From: Planctomycetales bacterium
GTDB lineage: Bacteria > Planctomycetota > Phycisphaerae > SM23-33
Length of the DNA: 64,000 nucleotides
Direction: 5' to 3'
Assembly: GCA_030612725.1 (NCBI GenBank)
Contig: JAUWNJ010000007.1
Coordinates: 1 to 64,000, forward strand
Shown here piece after piece: positions 17,401-64,000 of this stretch; positions within the stretch are counted from its first letter, which is position 1, and the number at the start of each line of letters is the position of its first letter. The notes under the pieces were generated by a model. The model did not search any database and was not told where the DNA came from. It was given only the letters and a program-made list of their open reading frames with translations. The position numbers and the translations under genes are program-made.

Positions 17401-19089
17401 ATGACGTCGAAAATTTCTAAAATATCGTTGCTGCTGCTGATGGCGGCGGGGTTATCCCTGTCGTCGTGCGTTGCTGATGCGCCGCCGAGGGTTGAACTTG
17501 CGCCCGAAACCGTAGTACCGGAAAAAATGGGGCTGGTGTTCTGGGTTGATGGGGTGGACATCGAGGCCTTCGGCTCGCTTCAGAAGGCGGGCAAACTTCC
17601 AAATATCACAAAATATCTCATCAATCGCGGCGTAACCGTTCATGGGGCCGTCGCCTCGCTGCCGACAATTACATACGCCAACGACACGTCGTTCGCTACG
17701 GGCCTGCTGCCGGGCCACCACGGAATCGTCGGAAACAAGTGGTTCGACCGCCACAGCCTCATCTTCCAGAACTACAACTTCATAAAGACCTACCAGCAGG
17801 TCGATTCGGATTTTCGCGCGACGACGATTTACGAGGCCCTCGCCGACGAGTTCACCGCCACGATACTCGCTCCCGTCCGCAGGGGCGCTACGCGCAATAT
17901 CGACAACTGGATGACGGCCGGCGTTTCCTGGCACTTCGGTATGCAAAAAAACGTCAACCACCTGACCACCGCAAGGTTTGAATTGATAGCCGACGTAGCC
18001 AACCGCACAGGACGCTGGCCAAAGTACATCTTCGCCTACTTCGTTACGCCCGACACCGCAGGCCATGCCTACGGCACGAAGGCCCCGCCATACACCGAGA
18101 TGATCCTCGACATCGACCGACAGATAGGGCACATCTGCCAATCGCTGGAAAAAGCCGGCATACTCGAAAAAACCTACATCACGCTGATTTCCGACCACGG
18201 CTTCGTCGATACGCCGAAGCATTTTGATGTAGCAAAGTATTTTTCCAGGAAACTCAAAATTCCGACAATCAGCAAGCGATATGGTCGGGATGAATTATTC
18301 GAGAAGCGCGTCGCCCACTTTGCCAAGGCCCGCGCAGTCGTCGTAACCGGCGGGATGCGACGATGCTGCATCCACATCCGCACCGGCGAACACTGGTGGC
18401 AAAGGCCGACGGAAGAAGAAATTGGCAATTTTTTTTACGCCCCATTCTGTATCGACGGTCCGTTGAACGATCTACCGAGCCTTCTGGTCCGGCAACCGGC
18501 GACAGACTTGATGATGGTCCGTCTTGGCGATAACAGCGTTCGCGTGCAGAACAAAACCGGCGTCGGCGTGATTGACCGTATTATCCGTGATGGGAAAAAA
18601 TTGTATCGTTATCGTGTAACGAAGGGAACCGACCCGCTGGGTTATGCGCCCAGTCCCAAAGCGTCAGCCTTGATGGACGGCGAATATCACGACGCCGACG
18701 CCTGGCTGGCTGCGACATTGGACACGCCCAAGCCGGACTGCGTTGTGCAATTAATCGAGTTGAACGATTCGCCTCGCAGCGGCGATATTGTCCTTTTCGC
18801 TGCCGACGGGTGGGCCTTCGGCGGCGCGGAAAAAGGCGGCCACGGCGGGCTGCTGAATCATGAGATTATCGTACCGTGGATATGGGCCGGTCCGGGCTTG
18901 CCGGCGAAAAGTTCAATAACCGCAGCGCGAACAGTGGACTTAATGCCCACGATGTTGCATCTTATTGGTCGGCCCGAGGCAATACCCGCCGGACTGGACG
19001 GGAAAAGCCTCGCTGAAAGATTGAAAAGAAGCGGTCAGCAATCAGCATTCAGCGATCAGCAAAAGAAAAAACTGAATGCTGAACGCTGA
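17401..19089 (+). CDS. Lipoprotein of the alkaline-phosphatase/nucleotide-pyrophosphatase superfamily
   Basis: 562 residues. A lipoprotein signal ends in LSSC (SLLLLMAAGLSLSSC). The superfamily metal and nucleophile motifs are in order: VFWVDGVD, TITYANDTSFATGLLPGHHG with the likely nucleophile threonine, VTPDTAGHAYG, LISDHGF and GGHGGLLNHE. Known family members hydrolyse phosphodiesters or phosphomonoesters outside the cytoplasm. The last roughly 15 residues (SAFSDQQKKKLNAER) are encoded by a palindromic AGC-unit repeat, and the stop codon lies in that repeat, so the natural C-terminus was probably replaced. It is followed closely by the GH113-like gene. Confidence 0.85.
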   Translation: MTSKISKISLLLLMAAGLSLSSCVADAPPRVELAPETVVPEKMGLVFWVDGVDIEAFGSLQKAGKLPNITKYLINRGVTVHGAVASLPTITYANDTSFATGLLPGHHGIVGNKWFDRHSLIFQNYNFIKTYQQVDSDFRATTIYEALADEFTATILAPVRRGATRNIDNWMTAGVSWHFGMQKNVNHLTTARFELIADVANRTGRWPKYIFAYFVTPDTAGHAYGTKAPPYTEMILDIDRQIGHICQSLEKAGILEKTYITLISDHGFVDTPKHFDVAKYFSRKLKIPTISKRYGRDELFEKRVAHFAKARAVVVTGGMRRCCIHIRTGEHWWQRPTEEEIGNFFYAPFCIDGPLNDLPSLLVRQPATDLMMVRLGDNSVRVQNKTGVGVIDRIIRDGKKLYRYRVTKGTDPLGYAPSPKASALMDGEYHDADAWLAATLDTPKPDCVVQLIELNDSPRSGDIVLFAADGWAFGGAEKGGHGGLLNHEIIVPWIWAGPGLPAKSSITAARTVDLMPTMLHLIGRPEAIPAGLDGKSLAERLKRSGQQSAFSDQQKKKLNAER

Positions 19090-19105
19090 TTGCTGATTGC
19101 TAAAG
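19033..19105. repeat. AGCAATCAGC-family palindromic element (copy 1)
   Basis: Left arm of AGC-units (GGTCAGCAATCAGCATTCAG...), an A-rich centre AGCAAAAGAAAAAAC, then a right arm of GCTGA units ending GATTGCTAAAGC. It spans the last codons and stop of the phosphodiesterase-like gene and ends two bases before the next start codon. Same family as 37004-37060 and 59054-59149. Confidence 0.85.
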
Positions 19106-36998: not shown

Positions 36999-37003
36999 AA
37001 AAA

Positions 37004-37060
37004 AGCAATCAGCAATCAGCGGTCAGCAAAAAACTGACCGCTGACTGCTGAATGCTGAAA
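37004..37060. repeat. AGCAATCAGC-family palindromic element (copy 2)
   Basis: AGCAATCAGCAATCAGCGGT CAGCAAAAAA followed by CTGACCGCTGACTGCTGAAT. Arms pair around an A-rich centre. It lies between two genes and ends three bases before the AGGAGAA ribosome-binding site of the next gene. Confidence 0.85.
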
Positions 37061-55447: not shown

Positions 55448-57907
55448 ATGAAAGTACAGGTTGGTATAACAGTTCTCTTGATTGCGACAGTCAGCGCGTT
55501 GGCTGGAGACGAACCCGGCGTGCTTTCCGTTTCAGGGGCGTTTTTTCCATACGTCCGCCCGGAGCGATGGGGACAGGTAACAGCCAATCTGGGCAACCCG
55601 GCCGAACAGGCGATGCAGGTGAAGTTTATCCTTTTCGCCAAGGATTCCGCCAGCGGACAAATTCGCTACACTCGCGGAGCCAATTTACCGCCTCGCACTC
55701 GTCGAATAGTCCGTCTTGGTCATCGCATCGGTATCATAAAGCCCAAACGCTTACCGTCGAAAAAACTCTCATACGGTAACAGCGAGCAAAACTTCAGGCT
55801 GGAAAATACGGCTACCAATAAAATCCTCGACAGCAATTTCATGCTGGTTCGCCCGTTGGGGCCCAAGCAATATTGTATTGCCTATGTTGATACCGAGATT
55901 ACACCGGGGCAGGACCATTCCTACCTTGCGAATATACCCGACAAACCTTTCGGGCAGGTCGCTCTGGCCAATTCGTCTCAGCGACTTCTTCCTGACAGGT
56001 GGTACGGATATTCATCGCTTGAGATGTTCATCATCTCGTCGTCTGAACCGGCAGATTTGCTGGACTCTCAAATAGACGCCGTTCTTGATTGGGTAGGTCG
56101 CGGTGGCGTACTGCTGGTTACCGCCCACTCATCAGCCGAACGCACGCTTGCCGGAAGGCTCGCCGAAGCCGCCGGTGTTGTCGTCGCGGGAAGTCATCAG
56201 GAATATCGCTTTGAGGCCAGAAGTACAGAAGGCGAGGATCGCTTCGAGATCGACCTGGTAACGCCGATGACAATGGCGCACTTATGCCCGATGAGCGGCA
56301 CCAAGGTGCTGTGGGAGGCCAACGGCATGCCTCTTTTGACGTCGCGACGGTTTGGTTCAGGGGTGATTTTCACGCTGTCCGTACCGGTCGGCGCTTTGGC
56401 GTCGAAGACGGTAAGTCAGCCCAAGAACAATACGAGCCAACCGACAAGTCGCCCCAGGGACAAGACAGACCGGTCTGGGATGCTCTGGCAGACAATAAGC
56501 GGGCAGGCAAAGCGAACAACGCCGATTTCGGTGGACGCTTTCGCCGAAGCGGCAAAGGACAAACTGCCCCAAATCGCCGGACGTCGCAGCCCAGACCGGC
56601 GCACACCGGTTTGCATCGTCGGCGTTCTGGTAGTCCTGTTCGGCCTGCTGGGGTTGTTTATGCGATTTATCCGACGCGGCGAATTGATCTGGCTGGTCAT
56701 GATACCGGTCGGTCTGCTGGGAACGGTAGGTATGCTGGTGTGGGGGATGACGCTTCGTAAAGAACCGAGGCTGAGTTTTCTGGCGCTGGCGTCGTCCAGA
56801 CCTGACGGAACGGCGCACGTTCAGCAACTATCGACCTATTACACGCCCAAAACCGAAGATGGCGCCTTTTCATCCGGTTCGACGCTGGGGACTATCCGGC
56901 CGGCGGTTTCGACCTCAATTTCAGTGATGAAATTGACGGAGATTTCAGCCAAGAGGACCATGACCCTTGAAAACGTGCGTGTAATCGCCAACAGCAGTCG
57001 GACCGCTTACGCCGAATCGCCGATGATCCTGTCGGGCCGGCTGGTTACGAAATTGTCCCTGGGTCCGAAGGGGCTTTCCGGTACGATAACCAACAATACC
57101 GGTGCGGACGTCTTCGATGCCTTAGTAATTGCGGGCGGACGGGCCTATTCCCTCGGTGATCTCCCCGCCGGACGCGCCACTGAAGTTGTTATCAACGACC
57201 CGCCGCTACCCAAAGATACCTACACCGAAAAAACCTTATTCCCCAGCAAGGAGGATCGTCTTCGCAGCGACCTTATTTCCGCTATGGTAAGTCAAGCGTC
57301 AGGGCAAAACCGCCGCCTGTCCAATCCGTCGCCCATGCTGCTTGGATGGTCCCGCCAAAGATTGCTGGATCCGCTTGGCAAAACTTTTACCAAAGATGTT
57401 GAATCGAAGGGGTTGACGCTGCTGACGTCGCCGCTGGTGATGTTAAAGTCGCCGCCCGATACGAAGGTTGTTGTTCCCAGCGGGCTGCTGAAACTTCACA
57501 TAGGCGGACATCCGCCCGTATGGGATCAGAAGAAGCAACAGTTCAACAAGTCCACCCTTTCGGGCGAAGTGGTGTTGAGTTTCGCCCCGCCGGCCGCTAC
57601 CGTCGAACTCACCGACGCGCACGCCACGCTGCAAATTACGATGCGTGCACCGAACTGTCGAATACGTTTCTTTGCCGTTACAGGCAAAGAAGACCAGGCG
57701 GAAGAAAAGGCACTGATACAAACAATTGACCGCCCCGTCGGGACATACAAAATATCATTCGAGAATCTCCGACGCATCGAAGGCGCGTATGAAATCATCA
57801 TCAAAGTCGATCCGGTTGCAGCAGATAAACAGAACAAACACGAACGTATATCCATCCTGTGGAAAATTGAATCGCTGAACCTGACTCTGGAAGGGGTAAG
57901 CAAATAG
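55448..57907 (+). CDS. Secreted/membrane protein of an ABC export operon, GldG-like or DUF4350-like
   Basis: 819 residues. A signal peptide (MKVQVGITVLLIATVSALAG) precedes beta-rich regions and a Rossmann-like segment LDWVGRGGVLLVTAHSSAER that recalls GATase1-like or DUF4350 domains. Two transmembrane helices lie near residues 395-435 (VGVLVVLFGLLGLFMRFI, MIPVGLLGTVGMLVWGM), followed by a large C-terminal beta domain. Directly downstream are an ABC ATPase and permease, so it is probably a partner of the transporter. In the gliding/Gld systems GldG plays such a role; equivalence is inferred from arrangement, not from catalytic motifs. Confidence 0.7.
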   Translation: MKVQVGITVLLIATVSALAGDEPGVLSVSGAFFPYVRPERWGQVTANLGNPAEQAMQVKFILFAKDSASGQIRYTRGANLPPRTRRIVRLGHRIGIIKPKRLPSKKLSYGNSEQNFRLENTATNKILDSNFMLVRPLGPKQYCIAYVDTEITPGQDHSYLANIPDKPFGQVALANSSQRLLPDRWYGYSSLEMFIISSSEPADLLDSQIDAVLDWVGRGGVLLVTAHSSAERTLAGRLAEAAGVVVAGSHQEYRFEARSTEGEDRFEIDLVTPMTMAHLCPMSGTKVLWEANGMPLLTSRRFGSGVIFTLSVPVGALASKTVSQPKNNTSQPTSRPRDKTDRSGMLWQTISGQAKRTTPISVDAFAEAAKDKLPQIAGRRSPDRRTPVCIVGVLVVLFGLLGLFMRFIRRGELIWLVMIPVGLLGTVGMLVWGMTLRKEPRLSFLALASSRPDGTAHVQQLSTYYTPKTEDGAFSSGSTLGTIRPAVSTSISVMKLTEISAKRTMTLENVRVIANSSRTAYAESPMILSGRLVTKLSLGPKGLSGTITNNTGADVFDALVIAGGRAYSLGDLPAGRATEVVINDPPLPKDTYTEKTLFPSKEDRLRSDLISAMVSQASGQNRRLSNPSPMLLGWSRQRLLDPLGKTFTKDVESKGLTLLTSPLVMLKSPPDTKVVVPSGLLKLHIGGHPPVWDQKKQQFNKSTLSGEVVLSFAPPAATVELTDAHATLQITMRAPNCRIRFFAVTGKEDQAEEKALIQTIDRPVGTYKISFENLRRIEGAYEIIIKVDPVAADKQNKHERISILWKIESLNLTLEGVSK

Positions 57908-57913
57908 AAAAGA

Positions 57914-58055
57914 GAATATTGAATATTGAACAGAGAATGTCGAATTTCGAAGTGAAAAGAAGATAAAATGGTCCCCAAAGCGCAAAACGTGGATTCTTGT
58001 TTTTTTCTTCCTGTTACTTCGAAATTCAAAATTCCCTGTTCAATATTCATTATTC
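57914..58055. repeat. 49-bp imperfect inverted repeat of GAATATTGAA-type units
   Basis: Left arm 57914-57962 and right arm 58007-58055 are each 49 bases and pair at 42 positions, with a 44-base loop. Units are GAATATTGAA and GAATTTCGAAGT. It lies between the first and second genes of the ABC operon. Confidence 0.88.
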
Positions 58056-58082: not shown

Positions 58083-59102
58083 ATGAGCGTTGCAGATAAT
58101 GAGGTCATCCTGCGTACGAAAGGTTTGACCCGCCATTACGACGAGATAAAGGCGTTGACGGACTTGGATCTTGAGGTTCGTCGGGGCGAGATATTCGGTT
58201 ACATCGGGCACAACGGAGCCGGTAAGACGACGACCATTCGCATACTGGCGGGGTTGTTGCGCCCCAGTAGCGGTTCGGCCAGTATTGCCGGCGTGGACGT
58301 TGCCGGCGGACGAGAACGGATAAAGCGCCTTGTCGGATATATGCCTGACAGATTCGGCGTCTATGAACAGATGCGGGTATGGGAGTATCTGGACTTTTTC
58401 GGCGCAGCCTTCGGAATACCCCGAAGCCGGCGGCGTGAGCGTATCGAAGCCGTTTTTGATATGACCGAATCCCACGACCTGCACGACCGGTTCGTCGATA
58501 CTCTTTCTCGCGGGATGAAGCAGCGTATCGGAATCGCCCGGACGCTTATGCACGACCCCCAGGTGCTGCTTCTGGACGAACCTGCCAGTGGGCTGGACCC
58601 GCGCGCCCGCGTCCACATGAGGCAACTCCTGCGCCGACTGGCGGATAACGGAAAGACACTGCTGGTTTCTTCGCACATACTTCCGGAACTGGCGGCCATA
58701 TGCGATTCTATCGGTATCCTGCACAACGGGAGGCTTCGGGCAGTCGGACCAATCGGCGAAGTCCTCGCGTCGTTACGACGCGACCGACTCATGGAAGTCC
58801 GTCTGCTCGGCGACGTCAAAAAGGGCGTCGGTACAATCGAGGCGAATGACCACTGCAAAAATGTCGAAATTTCGAAAGAGGCCGACAACGTTATAAATTT
58901 CCACTTTACCGGCGACGACGAGGAAATAGTGATTTTGCTGGATGGGTTGGTCCGGTTGGACCTTCGCGTCGTAACCTGTCGGGAAGTGCCCCTGACGCTG
59001 GAAGAAGCCTATATGACAGTCAGCGGATTCGAGGGCGAACTGGAAGAGGAGCCGTCAGCGATCAGCGATCAGCAGTCAGCAAAAGATAAAAAAGAATCCT
59101 GA
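58083..59102 (+). CDS. ABC transporter ATPase (GldA/NatA-like)
   Basis: 339 residues, start supported by AAGGGA upstream. Complete ABC motifs: GHNGAGKTTTIRILAG (Walker A), LSRGMKQRIGIARTLM (signature), VLLLDEPASGLDP (Walker B), followed by a C-terminal region. It powers the permease encoded next. The last about 15 residues (PSAISDQQSAKDKKES) are read from a palindromic AGC-unit repeat, so the tail is likely non-native. The motifs for ATP hydrolysis are intact. Confidence 0.92.
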   Translation: MSVADNEVILRTKGLTRHYDEIKALTDLDLEVRRGEIFGYIGHNGAGKTTTIRILAGLLRPSSGSASIAGVDVAGGRERIKRLVGYMPDRFGVYEQMRVWEYLDFFGAAFGIPRSRRRERIEAVFDMTESHDLHDRFVDTLSRGMKQRIGIARTLMHDPQVLLLDEPASGLDPRARVHMRQLLRRLADNGKTLLVSSHILPELAAICDSIGILHNGRLRAVGPIGEVLASLRRDRLMEVRLLGDVKKGVGTIEANDHCKNVEISKEADNVINFHFTGDDEEIVILLDGLVRLDLRVVTCREVPLTLEEAYMTVSGFEGELEEEPSAISDQQSAKDKKES

Positions 59103-59149
59103 ACGCTGAATCCTGACCGCTGATTGCTAAATGCTGATTGCTGAATGCT
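59054..59149. repeat. AGCAATCAGC-family palindromic element (copy 3)
   Basis: Left arm TCAGCGATCAGCGATCAGCA with centre AGCAAAAGATAAAAAAGA and a right arm ending GCTGATTGCTGAATGC. It overlaps the last codons of the ABC ATPase and ends seven bases before the permease ATG. Confidence 0.85.
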
Positions 59150-59155
59150 AAAAAA

Positions 59156-60865: not shown

Positions 60866-62770
60866 TTGTTTGTGATACGAGTAGAAAGCGAAGATGAATT
60901 GAACGAGATAAGAAACAGATATATTGTCGCATGTATCACTTTGTTGGCGGTTTCCCTGTCGGTACAGGCCCAAACGTCCGATGGGAATCGCAAACCTCTG
61001 TCTGAACCTTTTGCCGAAGGTGAGATGAAGAGGCAATACTTCGGTTCGGATCGGACGGTCCGGCTTCTTGGCGAAATTGCCCGCAACGGGATCGATCCTC
61101 TCGAACGGGAAAGAGCGGTAATGGACCTTGGGCGAACGAACAACCCAGTTGCTCTGGCGCTGCTGAAGCAGGCGATCTCGGATAAGGACCGGCGCGTGCG
61201 TTCTGCCGCTGCCTTGGCGCTGTGTAATTTCACTTCTGTCGAAGCCGCCGACCTGCTCGCAGGGGCGCTGAAAAGACCGGATTCGTCGAATGAAGGTCCC
61301 GCCGGGGCCTTGAGGGCCGCCCGAAGCGTCAGGTGGCCTGCACTGACCGAATCGCTGGAAGACCTCCTCGATTACCCCGCCCCCATCGTCCGAGCAAACG
61401 CACTCGATGCGCTGACCGAGCTACCCAAAGCCGTCGATGCGAAGACCTTACGAAAACTCCTGTCCGACAGCAACGTCGCCGTTCGTCTGGCGGCGGCGAG
61501 AAACGCCGCACTTCTCAAACCTGATTCGCTTCTGGCAGAAGCGTTAGCCAAGCAGGCCAGGGATGACGTCCCAGCCGTTCGGGGTCGGTGCCTGGCTGCA
61601 CTGGGACGCCACGGGGCGGGGAAATACATACCCCTGCTGATAACCGGCGGCCGCGACAAAAATCCGCTTCTGCGCATCGGCGCGGTGGAAGGTTTCACGT
61701 TAGCCGGTAAGGGCGAAAAAATCGCCGCTTTTCTGGACGACGACTCGACGCCGGTCCGATTGGCGGCTGTTCGGAGCGCAGGAAAACTCAAGCGGACCGA
61801 GTGCATCGACAGACTCTTCGCAATCATGCTCGGAACACCTCCGTCCGAGACCCACCTGGCCGCTCGAAACTCACTCGCGCAAATGGGTGCGCCGAAAACC
61901 ATCGCCGCCAAGGCCGGTGAACTGATGGAAAAGATCGCCCCGGAGTATTTCAGGCTCCTCGGTCGGGGGAAAATCAAAATTCCCGATCAGGGACGTCAGC
62001 AACTTATCCGACGGATAGAAAAGATCCGTCGAAACCTCAAGGCGCTGAGTTACTTACTTGGAGCGGCCAAAAGCACACAGGCATACAAAACACATCTTGA
62101 CCTGCTGAAAGGTGTACATGTACAGGACTCGCTGCTGGAACAACTGGCTTTGTCCATGGGGCAAATTTCCGAGAGTCGGGCAACCGAACCGATAGTGAAA
62201 CAGATGAAGAATTGTGCTGATTTCTCCGAAAGGGCCTTGAGAATCATGTCAAGGAACCCGGATGTCAAGATAATCCTTCCAGAAGACAACTCTTCCGGTC
62301 TGATGCACGCAGCAGTGGCGATGAAGATTTCCGAGGCGCTGCCCATAGTGATGCGGTTCAGTTCGATGGGATTCGGACGGTTACGGGCACAACGCTCGGC
62401 GTGGACGGCCGATATGCTGATGCCTGCACTGGTCGATAAGCAAACCCGACCGGCCGTTATCGCCGAACTCCGAAAACAGGTGAACCGGAATTACGCTGCG
62501 CGTGGTTTCCAGGTGGATTCACCCGAGTATCGCAAGGCAAAATCGCGAGAGTATACATCGCTGCGGTGCAGGTTCGAATCGGCCAAGTCACTGGGGCGAA
62601 TGAAAGCCGACGAAGCCGTCGAAGACCTTCGCTGGGTCATTACCGAAGACCGCATGGACCAGCGCGTGATGCACGCCGCAGCCTGGGCGATTCAGAAAGT
62701 TACCGGCAGGATGCCCGCCGTTACCATGCCAAAACCACATCATGGCGATTGGATCATAAAAGATTATTGA
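60866..62770 (+). CDS. Secreted HEAT-repeat protein
   Basis: About 634 residues. Only non-ATG starts precede the signal peptide (TTG 60866 or GTG 60872; IVACITLLAVSLSVQAQ). HEAT/PBS-lyase repeats dominate: DLGRTNNPVALALLKQA, RVRSAAALALCNFTSVEAAD and similar units. It follows the ABC operon and precedes the four-helix-bundle cassette. Likely an extracytoplasmic scaffold; no enzyme motif seen. Confidence 0.78.
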   Translation: MFVIRVESEDELNEIRNRYIVACITLLAVSLSVQAQTSDGNRKPLSEPFAEGEMKRQYFGSDRTVRLLGEIARNGIDPLERERAVMDLGRTNNPVALALLKQAISDKDRRVRSAAALALCNFTSVEAADLLAGALKRPDSSNEGPAGALRAARSVRWPALTESLEDLLDYPAPIVRANALDALTELPKAVDAKTLRKLLSDSNVAVRLAAARNAALLKPDSLLAEALAKQARDDVPAVRGRCLAALGRHGAGKYIPLLITGGRDKNPLLRIGAVEGFTLAGKGEKIAAFLDDDSTPVRLAAVRSAGKLKRTECIDRLFAIMLGTPPSETHLAARNSLAQMGAPKTIAAKAGELMEKIAPEYFRLLGRGKIKIPDQGRQQLIRRIEKIRRNLKALSYLLGAAKSTQAYKTHLDLLKGVHVQDSLLEQLALSMGQISESRATEPIVKQMKNCADFSERALRIMSRNPDVKIILPEDNSSGLMHAAVAMKISEALPIVMRFSSMGFGRLRAQRSAWTADMLMPALVDKQTRPAVIAELRKQVNRNYAARGFQVDSPEYRKAKSREYTSLRCRFESAKSLGRMKADEAVEDLRWVITEDRMDQRVMHAAAWAIQKVTGRMPAVTMPKPHHGDWIIKDY

Positions 62771-62772
62771 TG

Positions 62773-63231
62773 TATAGGCTGTAGGCTTTAGGCTGGGGGT
62801 TTGGAGCGGGTGCGGAAGGAACGAATCAAACCGGCAAGAACCTTGGAAGTTTCGACGCATGATTGAGATACAGATTCGTAAATTTGGTCTTGCAGGTAAC
62901 CGAGACGGTGGGAGAGAGACAGTTGGTACTCAACCTCGCGTACGGAGCCATAGGCAATGTCGAGGAAGCGCAGATACTCTGCCTCGGTTCGGCGTGCACA
63001 GCCCTCAACAATGTTGGACGCAACGGAAACGGACGCACGGCGCAACTGTGCCGTCAGACCGAACTGCTCGGCTTTCGGAAACGACGACGTGGCGCGATAG
63101 ACGGCGACGACCAGTTGGTCTGCCAATTGGAACGCTCGCAAGTTCGTGTGGTCTCTCATCTACAAACGCCTTTCCTATAACCCCCCAACCTATATATAAC
63201 CTACAGCCTATAGCCTACAGCCTATAGCCTA
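62773..63231. mobile_element. Inverted-repeat cassette carrying a four-helix-bundle gene
   Basis: Left end TATAGGCTGTAGGCTTTAGG (62773-) and right end, reverse-complemented, TTTTAGGCTATAGGCTGTAG... with TATAGGCTG units share the same repeated word, then GGGGGTT on the inner side in both. The enclosed length is about 460 bases with a single gene on the minus strand. It lies directly between a HEAT gene and the ribosome-binding site of fhs. Confidence 0.75.
62788..63159 (-). CDS. Four-helix-bundle (S23/IVP/Avd-like) protein
   Basis: 123 residues. The pattern LRAFQLADQLVVAVYRATSS, FGLTAQLRRASVSVASNIVE and the GCARRTEAEYLRFLDIAYGS segment define the four-helix-bundle family also found in 23S rRNA intervening sequences and beside diversity-generating retroelements (Avd). 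The stop codon TAA and the last residues (KPPA) are encoded in the flanking repeat. No reverse transcriptase or template repeat is in the window. Function of solo copies is unknown; RNA or DNA binding is suggested by basic residues in the second helix. Confidence 0.9.
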   Translation of the reverse strand: MRDHTNLRAFQLADQLVVAVYRATSSFPKAEQFGLTAQLRRASVSVASNIVEGCARRTEAEYLRFLDIAYGSVREVEYQLSLSHRLGYLQDQIYESVSQSCVETSKVLAGLIRSFRTRSKPPA

Positions 63232-63245
63232 AAAGGAGAACTCCA

Positions 63246-64000
63246 ATGAGTAAATCGGTACCGTCCGACATTGAAATTTCACGCGCGGCGACGCCCAGGC
63301 CCGTTACCGAGATAGCCCAGGCTGCGGGAATCGCTCCAGACGAACTGGAACCTTATGGTCGAAACAAAGCCAAGATATGCCTGAGCGTCCTCGATCGCCT
63401 CTCCGAGAAGCCCAATGGTAAGTACATCGACGTAACGGCCATTACGCCCACGCCGCTGGGCGAGGGTAAGACCACAACGGCCGTAGGACTGACGCAGGGA
63501 ATGGGACTGATCGGGAAAAACGTATTCCTGTGCATCCGTCAGCCTTCGATGGGTCCGACCTTCGGTATCAAGGGCGGAGCCGCCGGCGGCGGATACAGCC
63601 AGGTCATTCCGATGGAAGAGTTCAACCTGCACCTGACCGGCGACATCCACGCCGTCAGCATCGCCAATAACCTCCTCGCTGCCGCCATCGACGCTCGCAT
63701 CAAACACGAAGACCACGCCACCAACAAGAAGTGGGAAAAGACAGGTCTGCCCCGGCTGAATATAGACCCGTGGAGTATCACCTGGCGGCGAGTTGTGGAC
63801 GTCAACGACGCGGCGCTGCGGGGCGTCGAGATCGGGATAGGCGAGAACTGGATGGACGGGCCTCGGCGAAAGGCGCACTTCACCATCGCCGTCGCCAGCG
63901 AGGTAATGGCCGCCCTGGGACTCGCCGACGACCTGAAGGATTTGCGAAAACGTCTGGGGCGCATGATCATCGGACGGAAACGAAATGGAAAACTCCTGAC
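63246..64000 (+). CDS. fhs: Formate-tetrahydrofolate ligase, 5' part
   Basis: The first 251 residues; the gene runs off the window. AAGGAG lies eight bases before the ATG. The P-loop TPTPLGEGKTTTAVGL occurs at residues 67-82, followed by IRQPSMGPTFGIKGGAAGGG and HLTGDIHAVSIANNLLAAAI, all hallmarks of Fhs. It makes 10-formyl-THF from formate, THF and ATP and belongs to the Wood-Ljungdahl methyl branch or purine supply. Its leader is the right end of the four-helix-bundle cassette. Confidence 0.97.
   Translation, partial: MSKSVPSDIEISRAATPRPVTEIAQAAGIAPDELEPYGRNKAKICLSVLDRLSEKPNGKYIDVTAITPTPLGEGKTTTAVGLTQGMGLIGKNVFLCIRQPSMGPTFGIKGGAAGGGYSQVIPMEEFNLHLTGDIHAVSIANNLLAAAIDARIKHEDHATNKKWEKTGLPRLNIDPWSITWRRVVDVNDAALRGVEIGIGENWMDGPRRKAHFTIAVASEVMAALGLADDLKDLRKRLGRMIIGRKRNGKLL

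Follow-up and report, generated by a model that had tools for sequence, protein, structure and literature searches.

A 461-bp cassette with a 23S rRNA intervening-sequence protein gene between inverted heptamer arrays, a probable member of a widespread group of minute mobile elements

The window, a stretch of 64,000 nucleotides of contig JAUWNJ010000007.1 from a Planctomycetales bacterium, contains near its end a 461-bp cassette that adjoins the stop codon of an upstream HEAT-repeat gene and is followed by fhs, which we take to encode formate-tetrahydrofolate ligase (Table 1). The limits of the cassette were drawn by comparison with cassette-free spacers and agree with the size of about 460 bases given in a first-pass annotation of the sequence. 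Its only open reading frame codes for a four-helix bundle of 123 amino acids, which unambiguously belongs to the 23S rRNA intervening-sequence protein (IVP) family: it matches Pfam 23S_rRNA_IVP with E=3e-35 and TIGR02436 with E=2e-35, and its 121 bits far exceed the curated cut-offs of 24 (TIGR02436) and 33.8 (PF05635). Among solved structures, XCC0516, 2GSC, and 2RLD are the nearest; for XCC0516 a homopentameric assembly of four-helix bundles has been reported (Lin 2006, cited in PMC4990558). No transposase is encoded, which separates the cassette from classical MITEs and insertion sequences. Rfam had no match at the locus, and models of defence systems had none either.

Table 1. Coordinates of the cassette, its neighbours, and gene-less heptamer arrays in the window
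Feature	Position	Strand	Basis or remark
Whole inserted cassette	62771..63231	- (strand of its gene)	Limits from empty spacers in G002 and G003
Left heptamer array, TATAGGC-TGTAGGC-TTTAGGC-TG..	62773..62801	+	Sequence, inverted-arm comparison
Right heptamer array, inverted, ~5 units (TATAACC-TACAGCC-TATAGCC-TACAGCC-TATAGCC-TA)	63195..63231	-	Sequence, arm comparison
Four-helix-bundle gene, 23S rRNA IVP / TIGR02436 family, 123 aa	62788..63159	-	ORF, profile matches
HEAT-repeat gene, upstream neighbour	60866..62770	+	Stop codon 2 nt before first heptamer of cassette
fhs, downstream neighbour	63246..64000	+	ATG 14 nt after cassette; gene runs off window
Gene-less inverted heptamer hairpin, TCAGC family	19030..19101	.	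Array and pattern search
Gene-less inverted heptamer hairpin, TCAGC family	36999..37056	.	Array and pattern search
Gene-less inverted arrays, TCAGC family	59052..59150	.	Overlap 3' end of ABC-ATPase ORF, tail SAISDQQSA

Both ends of the cassette are formed by inverted arms (62773-62801 and 63198-63226) of 29 nt, which are 90% complementary and built from a tandem 7-nt unit, TAGGCTN (TAGGCTG, TAGGCTT, or TATAGGC), with about five units in the right arm and about three in the left. The left array also writes the stop codon and the last residues of the IVP (..P-A-stop). The enclosure of a four-helix-bundle gene by inverted ends and the coding role of the left repeat had both been pointed out in the first-pass annotation and are confirmed here. 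That one word recurs within the ends is likewise correct, but the word is a heptamer and not the proposed 9-mer TATAGGCTG, which consists of two letters of one unit and the whole next unit.

Two congeners (G002 and G003) have the HEAT-fhs junction without the cassette, and their spacer contains what resembles an fhs promoter, TTGACA-17-TATAAG in G002 and TTGACA-17-TACAAG in G003. About 40 nt of that spacer, including the -10 box, are absent from the window genome and thus were apparently replaced by the insertion. However, because the matched pieces of the flanks are only 77-89% identical, the cassette may instead have been lost later from G002 and G003. A unit copied from the target site was also considered, since the empty site of G002 holds GCCTATAA, but was rejected because units follow related proteins to unrelated sites. 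Empty and occupied versions of a site were also found in cyanobacteria. Plasmids of Nostoc C052 and N. edaphicum are filled where Nostoc C057, whose flanks are 95% identical, has an ordinary spacer stretch of about 43 nt, and Nostoc ATCC 53789 carries a gene-less hairpin at the same site; the nrdB-nrdA spacer is occupied in N. edaphicum and empty in Calothrix NIES-4105. Alignments read by eye revealed no target-site duplication at the four insertions compared, from each of which 12-43 nt are missing. Several spacers are occupied also in relatives from other genera and families, and part of the class must therefore be either long-lived or reinserting at hotspots.

Short-unit inverted ends are a property of most of the family. 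An inventory of the window genome, built from family and pattern searches, showed that all eight family loci, seven with an intact gene and one with an internal deletion, lie between inverted arrays of ~7-nt units, and that the units of the seven intact loci all differ (GGGACTT, GGGCATA, TAGGCTG, GATTGCG, AATGCTA, ATGTCTA, and AAATTAC-like). A set of 101 family members with flanks was then compiled from 40 related genomes, with fragmentary matches excluded. Arms with a 7-nt period are present at 83 of 98 members (85%), and identity within these arms is 0.69 at lag 7 and 0.66 at lag 14, compared with ~0.2-0.35 at other lags. The median arm score is 47 for the two arms of one element versus 17 for arms taken from different elements, and 63 of 97 elements score above the 99th percentile of such mismatched pairs; none of 184 shifted control positions passed, and three passed in direct orientation. 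Genome contigs were also scanned separately and gave 80 loci representing more than 15 phyla, which together with five plasmid loci are called the wide set below. Arms with the same period were recovered at 59 of its 84 scoreable loci (70%), among them loci of Xanthomonas, Nostoc and Calothrix plasmids, Bacteroidetes, and one Methanophagales archaeon. Neither of the two outcomes named in the first-pass annotation as evidence against an element, conservation of the locus in all relatives without empty sites or lack of the repeats at other family members, was thus encountered. The reading of the unit in that annotation as a possible minimal mobile system is accordingly supported. The average arm comprises ~4.6 units, which is compatible with, although no proof of, one unit per protomer of a pentamer. 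One IVP clade, marked by FENLxVYQKAVD (L099, L101, L104, and L110), has no heptamer arms, which suggests that it is a domesticated form. In two elements (L158 and L163; Brocadiaceae, Desulfobacterales) an outer terminal motif, GTAACTACTC, is kept at both ends.

The unit differs between elements, matches between both ends of one element, and tracks the protein. For pairs of elements at non-homologous sites in different genomes of the relatives' set, protein and unit similarity are correlated with rho 0.32, whereas 1000 permutations gave at most 0.086, a comparison that ignores the shared ancestry of the elements. The unit is common to 75% of the pairs with a protein similarity of at least 0.7 and to almost none below 0.4. 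Covariation persists across phyla (0.22 vs 0.075, again with kinship ignored), where the AGGCT core of the window's unit accompanies 11 of the 16 most similar proteins versus 4 of 80 distant ones (p=5e-8); examples come from Hydrogenedentes, Desulfobacteraceae, Deltaproteobacteria, and Uhrbacteria. The link between ends and protein, proposed as a check in the first-pass annotation, is strong, and it shows joint inheritance of the ends with the gene. Because the unit covaries with the protein, we infer as the best reading that the IVP, the element's only protein, would recognise its own heptamer array directly.

Further observations concern copies and derivatives. Two copies with unrelated flanks occur in one genome (L006 and L008), the latter with two internal deletions, and multiple gene-less hairpins built from the window's unit occur in both G005 and G035. 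The latter genome, which is ~90% complete, contains 88 AGGCT matches, and the matching gene was not found in it. A second family of units, TCAGCNN, has 115 pattern matches in the window genome, 379 in the congener G003, and none in 26 of the 40 genomes, and a reversed-pattern control was near zero. The gene matching the TCAGC arrays was found in G003, G012, G050, G048, and G046. Genomes with this gene hold more TCAGC hairpins than the rest (p=0.0003), a count to which the element's own arms add a few matches; here the gene was assigned by the arrays in its own flanks, after the units had been seen. In adjacent opposite pairs of arrays the polarity was the same in 30 of 30 cases (15 TCAGC pairs in the window genome and 15 AGGCT pairs in G035), and it is therefore the hairpin and not the single array that spreads. 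A spacer presumably between V-ATPase genes, as read from the translated sequence, contains four different heptamer arrays in four congeners, one of them with a nested TCAGC hairpin. At a second site a gene-less copy has been kept in a congener, whereas a third site retains no more than a collapsed scar. In the window, an inverted pair of GAATATT-type arrays without a gene inside (57899-58055, between two genes) is possibly another gene-less element, and a tandem array of ~10-nt units, GTTCCGAATC, occupies positions 287-388.

Most elements lie in sense inside operons. According to a codon-score gene caller, 64 elements of the relatives' set lie in sense between codirectional genes and only three, including the window element, in antisense, with six between convergent and three between divergent genes; the wide set has 36 sense and 5 antisense elements. 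The left arm starts at a median of 2 nt past the upstream stop codon. This sense bias would be expected if mobility were RNA-mediated, with the operon transcript carrying the hairpin and the IVP, as a relative of Avd, handing it over to a reverse transcriptase acting in trans for retro-insertion. The window protein is indeed weakly similar to the Avd and bAvd models of diversity-generating retroelements, and PF05635 has been noted both to resemble Avd and to be common near such retroelements (PMC10053308). However, the relationship is distant, with scores below the curated cut-offs (31 bits vs 80 for Avd), and no reverse transcriptase, template, or variable repeat was found. PF00078 matched nothing in any of the four congeneric genomes (G000-G003), including the 96% complete window genome with its seven elements, and G049, which is ~100% complete, also contains an IVP element without a reverse transcriptase. 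A retroelement helper is thus unlikely. Moreover, arm mismatches counted on either strand and pooled over both sets show no G-U bias (150 vs 147; 97:72 in the relatives and 53:75 in the wide set), which gives no support to selection on the arms at the RNA level. The proposal that the ends fold as a hairpin in DNA or RNA holds insofar as the cassette folds well as DNA (z -5.1; no shuffle folds as well) and, to a lesser degree, as RNA (z -2.5; 1 of 100 shuffles folds as well), but not as regards a selected RNA hairpin. Taken together, an RNA-mediated route appears improbable.

An equally doubtful alternative is that the cassettes are RNA devices of operons, comparable to rRNA intervening sequences (IVS) but outside rRNA. 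RNase III, perhaps directed by the IVP, would then excise the hairpin from the mRNA and so regulate or separate the adjacent genes, mobility being incidental. Such a function would fit the placement of the elements in sense within operons just past stop codons, the occupation of the same spacer in several families, and the known excision of IVS elements from 23S rRNA by RNase III (PMC4990558). It does not fit the existence of empty sites and of nested copies, the scars left by deletions, or the amplification specific to a genus, nor the antisense position of the window copy and the missing G-U bias.

Less likely still is that a Y1 (RAYT-type) transposase moves the heptamer hairpins and the IVP gene is a passenger, although Y1_Tnp genes are present in 34 of the 40 relatives, with six in the window genome, and REPINs are known hairpins moved by RAYTs (PMC3116915). 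In the three genomes whose Y1 loci were inspected, these loci have their own REP-type palindromic ends without a 7-nt period and with almost no matches to the heptamer families; G042, G044, and G049 contain IVP elements without any Y1 match, and the heptamer unit tracks the IVP. Finally, a reading without any element, in which a common gene came to lie by chance between spacer arrays produced by tandem slippage and palindrome correction, is scarcely credible: the two processes probably do homogenise the units within an element, as the arms of one element change together, but as a sole cause they are already refuted by the control positions and by the covariation of unit and protein across phyla, and other gene families have other types of ends.

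The cassette itself likely represents a widely distributed group of minute mobile elements, whose protein would recognise its own heptamer array and whose copying would be completed by the host. We know of no catalytic residues in the IVP family, and for this reason the enzyme must come from the host. A protein-guided process on a DNA hairpin is favoured by the lack of a reverse transcriptase, the different ends of the Y1 loci, and the absence of a G-U preference. In such a process the IVP, if it forms a homopentameric ring as does its solved relative, would bind its array, perhaps with one unit per protomer, and join the palindromic ends or an extruded hairpin. Host replication or repair, through template switching or end joining, could then copy the hairpin into new sites, with no recombinase or reverse transcriptase encoded by the element taking part. 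Hairpins without a gene would be moved in trans by a matching protein. The promoterless gene, in turn, might survive mainly where an operon transcribes it, which may be the cause of the sense bias, with the window copy as an antisense exception.

The closest known objects are the IVS of 23S rRNA, whereas REPIN/RAYT systems are the closest working analogue, from which the nuclease is lacking here. The IVS of Coxiella burnetii is 428 nt long and has a 28-bp stem and three to four direct GACAGAT heptamers by its 5' end (PMC4990558); it shares with the window cassette the protein family, the size (428 vs 461 nt), and the terminal inverted repeats. In contrast, the cassette sits in the HEAT-fhs spacer between protein-coding genes and not inside a 23S rRNA gene, its class has element-specific units that follow the protein, and gene-less multicopy derivatives exist. 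With REPIN/RAYT systems (PMC3116915) the class has in common a single protein gene with matching short inverted repeats, many gene-less spacer hairpins with the same ends, and co-evolution of protein and repeat. However, the gene associated with the heptamers encodes a four-helix bundle and not a Y1 HUH nuclease, the repeats are tandem 7-nt arrays without a GTAG tag, and true RAYT loci in the same genomes end in REP-type repeats. Tandem heptamers of cyanobacteria and Beggiatoaceae, such as TAACTGA (PMC4679880), are also 7 nt long, intergenic, close to stop or start codons, spread in a strain-specific manner, and subject to indels in 7-nt steps, but their published description treats them as direct repeats, supposes that they act in regulation, and links them neither to an IVP nor to inverted pairing. 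Apart from the Coxiella heptamers, the openly licensed literature contains no description of a link between IVPs and heptamers.

Other one-gene cassettes were met in the same genomes. GxxExxY / PDDEXK_3 (PF13366) loci of the relatives (L281-L310) carry inverted short-unit arrays in 24 of 28 cases, and one of them, L297, lies in the window genome (G000:C30:11351). They are a sister class that likewise consists of one gene of ~120 codons between inverted short-unit arrays, but the period is 9 nt, the core is CACAGAG-like, and the gene belongs to a nuclease family; the CACAGAG-like motif with its 9-nt period occurs in 40 of 48 arms of PF13366 loci compared with 5 of 160 IVP arms. Small DUF559 genes of the relatives (L311-L315 and L324) were found in six of six cases between inverted CCCTCTCCC..GGGAGAGGG hairpin repeats, which have no 7-nt period.

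To our knowledge, the function of the IVP four-helix bundles is not known, although the genes are common and structures have been solved, and we know of no explanation for the tandem heptamer repeats that have long been seen in bacteria. The present data join the two: in many phyla, the protein goes with a 7-nt end code that matches it. More tentatively, these elements could even represent a separate class of mobile DNA that has neither a recombinase nor a polymerase of its own, in which a non-enzymatic pentamer reads a tandem 7-nt code on its own palindromic ends and recruits host machinery of replication or repair for copying the hairpin, and in which protein and code diverge together into many non-cross-reacting families per genome. 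The rRNA IVS and the dispersed heptamers of cyanobacteria and other phyla would then belong to the same class. The link between IVPs and heptamers would explain the origin of many spacer hairpins and of odd C-terminal tails such as SAISDQ, and it would provide a natural set of protein-nucleic-acid specificity pairs.
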